Positions 61,537-63,756 of a stretch of DNA of 64,000 nt are shown piece by piece. Made by a program: the position numbers and the translations under genes. Numbering within the stretch: position 1 is the stretch's first letter; the number at the start of each line of letters is the position of its first letter. The stretch lies in assembly GCF_003789055.1 (NCBI RefSeq), contig NZ_ML119091.1:62001-126000 (forward strand), read 5' to 3'. The stretch comes from Histidinibacterium lentulum (lineage in GTDB: Bacteria; Pseudomonadota; Alphaproteobacteria; Rhodobacterales; Rhodobacteraceae). Under the pieces are notes generated by a model. It made no database searches. It saw nothing but the letters and a program-made list of their open reading frames with translations, and was not told the origin of the DNA.

Positions 61537-62424
61537 TCACAGCTTGTTGACGGGCACCTTGAGGAAGACGTTCCCCTTGTCGTCCTCGGGCGGCAGGTTG
61601 CCGGCGCGCATGTTCACCTGGAGCGAGGGCACGATCAGCCGCGGCATGGCCAGCGTCGCGTCTCGGGCGTCGCGCATTTCTACGAACTCGTCCTTGGTCC
61701 TGCCTTCGCCCACATGGATGTTGCGGGCCTTCTGCTCGGCCACGGTCGTCTCCCAGAAGTAGCTGTCGCGGTCCGGGGGCAGGTAGTCGTGGCCGACGAA
61801 GATGCGGGTCTCGTCCGGCAGGGCGAGGATCTTCTGGATCGACTCGTAGAGCGCCTCGGAGGAGCCGCCGGGGAAATCGCAGCGGGCCGTCCCGAAGTCG
61901 GGCATGAAGAGCGTGTCCCCGACGAAGGCCGCGTCGCCCATGACATGGGTCATGCAGGCGGGCGTATGGCCCGGCGTGTGCAGGGCGGTGCAGGTCATGC
62001 CGCCGACCTCGTAGGTGTCGCCGTCCTCGAACAGCGCGTCGAACTGGCTGCCGTCGCGCTGGAACTCGGTGCCTTCGTTGAAGATCTTGCCGAAGGTTTC
62101 CTGCACGATGGTGATGTTGCGCCCGATCCCGAGCTTGCCGCCCAGCTCGCGCTGGAGATAGGGCGCGCCGGAGAGGTGGTCGGCATGGACATGGGTCTCG
62201 ATCAGCCACTCGACCCTGAGGTCGTTCCGGCGGATGAAGTCGATGATCCGGTCGGCGTGGTCGTAGGTGATCCGCCCGGCGGCATAGTCGATGTCCATGA
62301 CGGAATCGACGATGGCGCAGGCGTTGGAGCCCGGGTCCTTGACGACGTAGGTCACGGTATTGGTGGCGTCGTCGAAGAAGCCGGTGACCTCGGGCCTGAG
62401 GGTGGTGTCTGCGGTGTCCTTCAT
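61537..62424 (-). CDS. ETHE1-like MBL-fold persulfide dioxygenase
   Basis: This 295-residue metallo-beta-lactamase-fold protein has THVHADHLSGAPYL (residues 77-90) with the HxHxDH iron/zinc motif, HTPGHTPACMTHVMGD and FVGHDYLPPDR. This is the pattern of bacterial persulfide dioxygenases (PDO type II/BLH), which oxidise glutathione persulfide to sulphite. GGAGG lies 8 bases before the ATG at 62424. Alternative ATGs at 62436 and 62448 exist; the latter overlaps the stop of the DUF2892 gene (ATGA). Confidence 0.85.
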   Translation of the reverse strand: MKDTADTTLRPEVTGFFDDATNTVTYVVKDPGSNACAIVDSVMDIDYAAGRITYDHADRIIDFIRRNDLRVEWLIETHVHADHLSGAPYLQRELGGKLGIGRNITIVQETFGKIFNEGTEFQRDGSQFDALFEDGDTYEVGGMTCTALHTPGHTPACMTHVMGDAAFVGDTLFMPDFGTARCDFPGGSSEALYESIQKILALPDETRIFVGHDYLPPDRDSYFWETTVAEQKARNIHVGEGRTKDEFVEMRDARDATLAMPRLIVPSLQVNMRAGNLPPEDDKGNVFLKVPVNKL

Positions 62425-62444
62425 GAGGTCCTCCATTGGGTCGG

Positions 62445-62654
62445 TCATTTGCGCGGGCAGGTGTTCAGCCCGACGATGGAATAGGCGGGGCAGTTGCCCG
62501 CCAGCGAGGTGACGGCGAAGACGCCCGCCACGATCACCGCGATCCAGTGCAGCAGCGGCGAGGCTGCCCAGGGCGTGGCGAAGGCCCAGATCAGCAGCAG
62601 CGCGGCGAGGGCGAGGCGCAGGCCCCGGTCGATCTTGCCCATGTTCGTGGTCAT
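62445..62654 (-). CDS. DUF2892 (YgaP-like) inner membrane protein
   Basis: This 69-residue protein has two membrane helices (RLALAALLLIWAFATPW and LLHWIAVIVAGVFAVTSLAG) and ends NCPAYSIVGLNTCPRK. The NCP-Y--LG--TC motif is the DUF2892 hallmark, often fused or linked to rhodanese or persulfide-metabolising enzymes. GGAGG precedes the ATG at 62654. It forms an operon with the dioxygenase. Confidence 0.9.
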   Translation of the reverse strand: MTTNMGKIDRGLRLALAALLLIWAFATPWAASPLLHWIAVIVAGVFAVTSLAGNCPAYSIVGLNTCPRK

Positions 62655-62739
62655 GTCGGTGTCCTCCGTGAGACTCGTTGTGCTGCCTTGATGGCACGGC
62701 GGGGCGGGGACCGACGGTGACTTGGTCACCGACGGCCGT

Positions 62740-63411
62740 TCAGCGATCGTTCGAGGTGCGGGCGAGGCGGTTCAGACCCTCGCGCCCGGTGAGAAGGACA
62801 GTGCCGCGGCCCTGCTGGATCCAGCCGCGGCGCTGGAATTCCGCCAGCGTGCGGGACACCACCTCGCGCGCGGTCCCAAGCTCTGTGGCGAGGGAGGCGT
62901 GGGTGGCGTTCACCGTGTCGCCGTCCTGCGCCAGTTGCAGGAGTCGGGCGGCGAGGCGCACGTCCATGCGCTGGAACACGATGTCGTCGATCAGGGTGAA
63001 GAGATCGGTGATGCGGCGCGAATAGGCGCGGAAGATGAATTCGCGGAACGCCGGCGAGCGCCCCGTCAGATCGTCGAAGGCGGCGCGGGGGATGGCGACG
63101 GCGGTCACGTCGGTCTCGGCGATGCCGTCGGCGGAATAGTCCTCGTGGGCGAGCATGCAGGCGGTGGTCATCACGCAGCTTTCGCCGGCGTTGACGCGGT
63201 AGAGGATCACCTCGCGCCCGGTGTCGGATTTCTGCTGCACGCGGACGGTGCCGTCGAGGAGCAGGAGGAAATTTCCGGGACGGCTGCCCGGCTCGAAGAT
63301 CGGGGTGCCGGCGGGCACGGTCACGATGGCGCTGCCTGTCTCGAGGACCGAACGGATGTCGGGAGGGAGCCGGGAGAGGCCCTCGAAGCGGTCGATCCAG
63401 CTGTCGGGCAT
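62740..63411 (-). CDS. Crp/Fnr-family regulator with two central cysteines
   Basis: This 223-residue protein has an N-terminal cNMP-binding-like domain and a C-terminal HTH (ATHASLATELGTAREVVSRT). C79 and C85 in GESCVMTTACML are the only cysteines, and it lacks the N-terminal Fe-S cluster of FnrL. Linkage to DUF2892 and persulfide dioxygenase suggests a redox or persulfide sensor. The start is 63411 (MPDSWIDRFEG); an upstream ATG at 63456 would begin inside a palindrome. Confidence 0.9.
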   Translation of the reverse strand: MPDSWIDRFEGLSRLPPDIRSVLETGSAIVTVPAGTPIFEPGSRPGNFLLLLDGTVRVQQKSDTGREVILYRVNAGESCVMTTACMLAHEDYSADGIAETDVTAVAIPRAAFDDLTGRSPAFREFIFRAYSRRITDLFTLIDDIVFQRMDVRLAARLLQLAQDGDTVNATHASLATELGTAREVVSRTLAEFQRRGWIQQGRGTVLLTGREGLNRLARTSNDR

Positions 63412-63438
63412 GGTGCGCGGTTCCCTGTGGTCGGATTC

Positions 63439-63458
63439 ATATGTGGCAATACACATAT
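63439..63458. promoter_or_regulatory. 20-bp palindrome upstream of the Crp/Fnr gene
   Basis: ATATGTG, GCAATA, CACATAT: perfect 7-bp arms in AT-rich DNA. It lies 28-47 bp upstream of the chosen start, overlapping the probable promoter, as expected for autoregulation or silencing. It differs from the FnrL consensus. Confidence 0.75.
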
Positions 63459-63506: not shown

Positions 63507-63677
63507 TCACTCCCGCCGCTCGAGATACCAGGTCGCCAGGGCCGCGACGGCGATGACCGCGATGGGCGCGATATGGGCGACGGCATGGCCGCTGTCGGGG
63601 ACCGGGGGGTGGGCGCCGTGGGCAAGGGCCGCCGCAGGACAGACGAGAGCGCAGACGGCGGTGACGATAAGGCGCAT
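63507..63677 (-). CDS. Small exported or membrane protein of 56 residues
   Basis: It begins MRLIVTAVCALVCPAAALAH, a signal-like segment, then GAHPPVPDSGH and a C-terminal helix AHIAPIAVIAVAALATWYLE ending RRE. Histidines (AHGAH, SGHAVAH) cluster between the two hydrophobic parts. AAGGAG precedes the ATG. A degenerate FnrL box lies about 80-93 bp upstream. Family not recognised. Confidence 0.75.
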   Translation of the reverse strand: MRLIVTAVCALVCPAAALAHGAHPPVPDSGHAVAHIAPIAVIAVAALATWYLERRE

Positions 63678-63756
63678 TCGGTACTCCTTCCCCTCCGGAC
63701 CCGCGGGTCCGACCCTGTGTCGTCCCTCAGCATCCCCTCGGGCCAGGGAAGAGGAT

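Follow-up and report, generated by a model that had tools for sequence, protein, structure and literature searches.

A candidate reactive-sulfur-responsive activator of the Crp/Fnr family and its predicted operator beside a persulfide dioxygenase gene in Histidinibacterium lentulum

Sensing of reactive sulfur is known from regulators of the ArsR (SqrR, BigR), CsoR (CstR) and Fis-type (FisR) families and from some general redox regulators. The sensing section of a 2022 review names CstR, SqrR/BigR, PigS, FisR, OxyR, LasR and OhrR as regulators, and "Crp" occurs in that review in reference titles on other subjects only (PMC9774590). A literature search, in which the spelling "Crp/Fnr" with a slash could be missed, returned no paper that presents a Crp/Fnr protein as a sensor dedicated to persulfide; the Crp of Acinetobacter, found persulfidated, was rejected as a precedent as it is a true Crp homologue, not a local sensor. 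Here a Crp/Fnr-family regulator of Histidinibacterium lentulum is considered which, judged by comparative sequence evidence (operator, spacing, regulon and cysteine conservation), fairly probably activates genes of sulfide and persulfide detoxification through the site GTGAC-N3-GTCAC and is triggered by reactive sulfur at C79, usually together with C85; gene context points to persulfide or sulfane sulfur as the signal.

The window, a stretch of 64,000 nucleotides from this genome, carries on its minus strand the genes for the regulator, a DUF2892 protein, a persulfide dioxygenase (PDO) and a SulP transporter, in that order and where the initial annotation had placed them (Table 1). DUF2892 is the first gene past the predicted operator, and SulP is kept in regulator neighbourhoods by synteny among orthologous loci. 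The PDO has the metallo-beta-lactamase fold and the model matches (Lactamase_B, NF040641) of an ETHE1/Blh dioxygenase, corresponding to the dioxygenase half of the Blh model NF040641 (E 3e-113) with a score that falls short of the cut-off set for the two-domain protein, and it lacks the sulfur-transferase domain of Blh. A longer regulator reading frame starting at 63456 would add a third cysteine and begin inside the palindrome ATATGTG-N6-CACATAT; matches to orthologues start within residues 1-5 of the shorter form, which is used here. The statement that no SQR gene is present is accurate for the window, but elsewhere the genome has an SQR gene with DUF5368 (G000:C4:170441-171757), and the surrounding locus examined contains no exact GTGAC-N3-GTCAC. 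Upstream of the regulator, a small open reading frame (63507-63680, minus strand) is signal-peptide-like and histidine-rich, with a C-terminal hydrophobic stretch and no Pfam match.

Table 1. Features of the regulator locus, in positions of the window.
Feature	Position	Strand	Remarks
SulP family transporter + STAS domain, 578 aa	59549..61285	-	Sulfate_transp 2e-108, STAS 2e-13
ETHE1/Blh-type persulfide (sulfur) dioxygenase (PDO), 295 aa	61537..62424	-	Pfam Lactamase_B 4e-23
DUF2892 / YgaP-like transmembrane protein, 69 aa	62445..62654	-	Pfam PF11127 YgaP-like_TM, E 5e-20
Predicted extended -10 region TGCCATCAA	62688..62696	-	Fixed spacing from operator
Predicted operator GTGACCAAGTCAC (context CGGTGAC-CAA-GTCACCG)	62717..62729	-	Between regulator and DUF2892 genes
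Crp/Fnr-family regulator, 223 aa	62740..63411	-	Start ATG 63411
Palindrome ATATGTG-N6-CACATAT	63439..63458	.	Exact; single copy in genome

The regulator combines a beta-roll with a Crp-type helix-turn-helix, seen as the Pfam domains cNMP_binding (PF00027, 7e-14) and HTH_Crp_2 (PF13545, 2e-15), both above curated cut-offs, and its structure model (pLDDT 92) matches CRP structures with Z about 21, placing it in the Crp/Fnr superfamily and outside the ArsR fold of SqrR and BigR. Its recognition helix reads R182-E183-x-x-S186-R187 and aligns with R180, E181 and R185 of CRP, whose contacts read GTGA. The arginine R82 with which E. coli CRP responds to cAMP aligns with Y92, a tyrosine in 80 of 81 close orthologues; cAMP binding was ruled out since this phosphate-binding arginine is absent, and the old nucleotide pocket may therefore serve another signal. 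An FNR-type 4Fe-4S cluster was likewise ruled out, the four ligand cysteines being absent and the only two cysteines both lying in the beta-roll region. On the best reading of the sequences the regulator belongs to an unnamed cross-phylum Crp/Fnr subfamily with members in Pseudomonadota, Bacteroidota and Bacillota.

These two sole cysteines, C79 and C85, lie six residues apart in the former cyclic-nucleotide pocket, as had been claimed and as holds for the shorter form. Their conservation in orthologues had been set as a test of the proposed sensory role, and it was passed: among homologues from Alpha- and Gammaproteobacteria, Bacteroidota and Bacillota, C79 is present in all 153 and C85 in 126, a conservation that by these counts exceeds chance and is of the kind expected of a persulfide-responsive regulator. 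C85 is missing from the other 27; on a quick tree of the homologues its state changes 11 times, at least 5 of these changes being forced by well-supported branches, and the residue was lost on several occasions, in some members without loss of the operon (for example L060, L064, L068, L073, L125, L131 and L134, all members with a PDO operon). As C79 is invariant and C85 is lost in such members, C79 would be the indispensable residue and C85 its common yet dispensable partner, and the tri- or tetrasulphide suggested between them cannot, as a strict two-cysteine bridge, hold for every member. In the structure model C79 directly precedes the short helix 80-88 and C85 lies within it; by an ideal-helix estimate their C-alphas are ~10 Å and their sulfurs ~12 Å apart, a distance at which a direct disulfide could form only with unwinding, while several sulfur atoms in a bridge would reduce the movement needed. 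A sister clade (L135-L153), from several Rhodobacterales genomes, keeps C79 and the same operator but carries G in place of C85 and adjoins DUF2892 alone; its signal may differ or require just one cysteine.

Neighbourhood content, obtained by clustering the open reading frames around orthologues, gives a core order of regulator, DUF2892, YeeE/YedE (PF04143) with DUF6691, PDO, a 559-aa fusion protein and SulP. The fusion protein (L026:6941-8614 and its equivalents in many orthologous operons) joins a BLH_phosphatase domain (PF04273) to an SQR-like flavoprotein and leaves the dioxygenase separate, whereas in Blh this domain is joined to the dioxygenase, so that the domain has in effect been swapped between partners in the same pathway. 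Also found near the regulator genes are a 1-Cys peroxiredoxin gene together with a LysR gene, a TDT/SLAC1 channel, DUF5368, a second SQR and cydCAB, the cyd genes having been recognised by eye from sequence. In the gammaproteobacterial genome L224 an independent copy of the operator precedes a gene for a secreted protein, read as rhodanese-like, followed by DUF2892 and SQR, and in Spirosoma (Bacteroidota) the homologue is followed by genes for DUF81, for a beta-lactamase-domain (MBL) protein and for two YeeE/YedE proteins. Around the homologues of Bacillota L156 and Bacteroidota L157 no obvious sulfide-oxidation genes were seen among the neighbours. The proposal that a Crp/Fnr protein with a cysteine pair is tied to persulfide genes is thus borne out by tight linkage and by cysteines conserved across orthologues, and the conserved site together with synteny (PDO, SQR, YeeE/YedE) argues for control of sulfide and persulfide detoxification genes. 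One record titled Oceanobacillus (Bacillota; L019, WNWL01000007.1) holds a complete Rhodobacterales-type operon with a regulator 75% identical, and this assembly is probably mislabelled or contaminated.

The predicted operator is the only exact GTGAC-N3-GTCAC in its own genome, and 69 of the 81 close loci have one or more exact copies, 81 sites in all. Counted from -60 to +300 of the regulator stop codon over 119 close and distant loci, the dyad is found near the 3' end of the regulator gene in 82, against 0-1 for 13 permuted half-sites, and among spacings from 0 to 8 it is N3 in those 82, N4 in one, and none of the others occurs. It is retained even where the neighbouring regulator is only about 40% identical; Gammaproteobacterial members have GTGACAATATCAC and a Thiothrix plasmid member GTGACTTTGTTAC at the equivalent place. 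The half-sites of classical CRP and FNR sites stand one base farther apart. In L028, L036, L043, L056 and others the regulator stop codon and the operator overlap, so that the binding site shares bases with the end of the coding sequence. Genomes with the regulator have a weak excess of sites (4.5 vs 2.9 per genome; Mann-Whitney p 0.014; 62 genomes, the first part of 149 searched), the association being weak because exact 10-base dyads also arise by chance, and the argument rests on adjacency and spacing, not on site counts. A longer pattern, TGGTGACNNNGTCACCA with one mismatch, gave mostly chance matches and was dropped.

When the loci are aligned on the operator, T+33, G+34 and A+37 are conserved (0.80, 0.58 and 1.44 bits) at variable distances from the start codon, a pattern taken here as an extended -10 element whose -11 base is A37. 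The predicted transcription start is then near +48, which puts the operator centre near -41/-42; in the window this start falls near 62681, 27 nt upstream of the ATG of DUF2892. The operator lies upstream of the -10 element at a fixed 22-23 bp, and in gamma members the -10 (TATAAT, TACTAT) starts one base nearer to it. Fifteen further exact sites lie away from the regulator-DUF2892 junction, 14 of which were examined (L065:6339 was left out); all 14 have A at +37, and they include sites before SQR (L027, L040, L061), TDT (L047), YeeE (L060, L062) and cydA (L011, L012, L019, L025). Before cydA the operator has the same -10 spacing, which suggests that in these genomes cytochrome bd and sulfide detoxification are under joint control. 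No -35 consensus was seen at the aligned operator promoters, where the operator itself occupies the -35 position. An operator centred at this fixed position, with no -35 element to be recognised, is characteristic of class II activation by Crp/Fnr proteins.

This geometry points to a class II activator, not a repressor, and the analogy with SqrR and BigR drawn in the initial annotation is not supported as regards the sense of action. A regulator that binds the same site, governs the same regulon and represses until released by persulfides would act like SqrR/BigR, the persulfide sensors best known from this group of bacteria (PMC9774590), and some Crp/Fnr proteins do repress; such a repressor is distinctly unlikely here, however, as it has no need for the fixed spacing from the -10 element. 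It is also highly unlikely that the palindrome ATATGTG-N6-CACATAT is an operator, whether for autoregulation or for another factor. It does exist exactly as first reported, a perfect AT-rich dyad in 70% GC DNA, unique in the genome and 27 bp before the regulator start codon. Upstream of the regulator in 80 orthologous loci it was not found, however, nor in one relative of the same genus in which regulator, DUF2892 and PDO stand in this order, and the best match upstream of the regulator, with a mean of 7.80 of 14 over 81 loci, does no better than shuffled (7.74) or downstream (7.60) sequence, the window's own copy scoring 14 of 14. The window holds 16 perfect 7-N6-7 palindromes, and the half-site is unlike the conserved GTGAC. 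The palindrome was therefore rejected as probably not the operator of the regulator, and GTGAC-N3-GTCAC takes its place as the better candidate.

With activation from GTGAC-N3-GTCAC granted, the signal acting on C79 could still be another one, such as general oxidants through thiol oxidation, NO, or a haem-bound gas as in CooA. An invariant C79 with a dispensable C85 would suit such a signal, as would the peroxiredoxin and cydAB genes among the neighbours. In an alignment with a provisional CooA sequence, the cysteine that serves CooA as a haem ligand lies in the equivalent segment. The regulator has no counterpart of the CooA histidine ligand, however, there being no conserved histidine two residues on from the cysteine, and its target genes are overwhelmingly those of sulfide and persulfide handling, so that this alternative is unlikely.

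In the reading that is preferred, reactive-sulfur-triggered activation, the regulator, presumably a dimer as in its superfamily, would bind GTGAC-N3-GTCAC just downstream of its own gene and, from -41/-42, recruit RNA polymerase to transcribe DUF2892 and PDO; in relatives it would also activate genes for YeeE/YedE sulfur importers, SQR, SulP, TDT and cytochrome bd. Persulfide or sulfane sulfur would modify C79, just before the short helix, with C79 bridged in most members to C85 through extra sulfur atoms, and remodelling of the modified pocket beside the dimer helix would then switch on DNA binding or activation. The wider proposal has about even chances: that the whole unnamed subfamily, including the crystal structure 3DV8, consists of dedicated reactive-sulfur sensors and class II activators, with an invariant C79 usually sulfur-bridged to C85 in the old cyclic-nucleotide pocket, turning on PDO, SQR, sulfur importers and cytochrome bd from GTGAC-N3-GTCAC. 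If true, one of the largest bacterial regulator superfamilies would join reactive-sulfur sensing, the controller of persulfide dioxygenase operons in many Roseobacter-group bacteria would be named with its exact operator and promoter geometry, a role would be suggested for 3DV8, and sulfide detoxification would be tied to control of cytochrome bd in some species.

Among the known systems, SqrR and BigR resemble the regulator in having two cysteines and in controlling sulfide and persulfide oxidation genes, including the Blh dioxygenase (PMC9774590, PMC5823870), but they are repressors of the ArsR fold with distant cysteines (C41/C107 in SqrR), whereas the regulator has a Crp/Fnr fold, activator geometry and cysteines six residues apart of which C85 is dispensable. 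FisR of Cupriavidus is likewise a reactive-sulfur-responsive activator of sulfide-oxidation genes (PMC9774590), but belongs to another protein family, has three cysteines and is sigma-54 dependent, whereas the -10 element predicted here looks sigma-70-like. RedB of Rhodobacter capsulatus (rcc01561) represents another newly described Crp/Fnr subgroup from the same bacterial order; compared by description only, it differs in its reported motif, which is 12-bp and non-palindromic, and the paper describing it nowhere uses the word "cysteine" (PMC9603854). E. coli CRP and FNR share with the regulator the fold, the predicted class II promoter position and, in CRP, the GTGA contacts matched by R-E-x-x-S-R, but the regulator is without the cAMP-contact arginine and the four Fe-S cysteines of FNR, and its half-sites are one base closer. 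The closest solved structure is 3DV8, the Crp/Fnr regulator EUBREC_1222 of Eubacterium rectale from structural genomics; although it comes from a Bacillota anaerobe, is 25% identical and has an entry title that gives no function, it is both the best profile match of the regulator (E 1.8e-40) and the best structural match of its model (Z 24.3, rmsd 2.3 over 214 residues), and it carries both cysteines at aligned positions.
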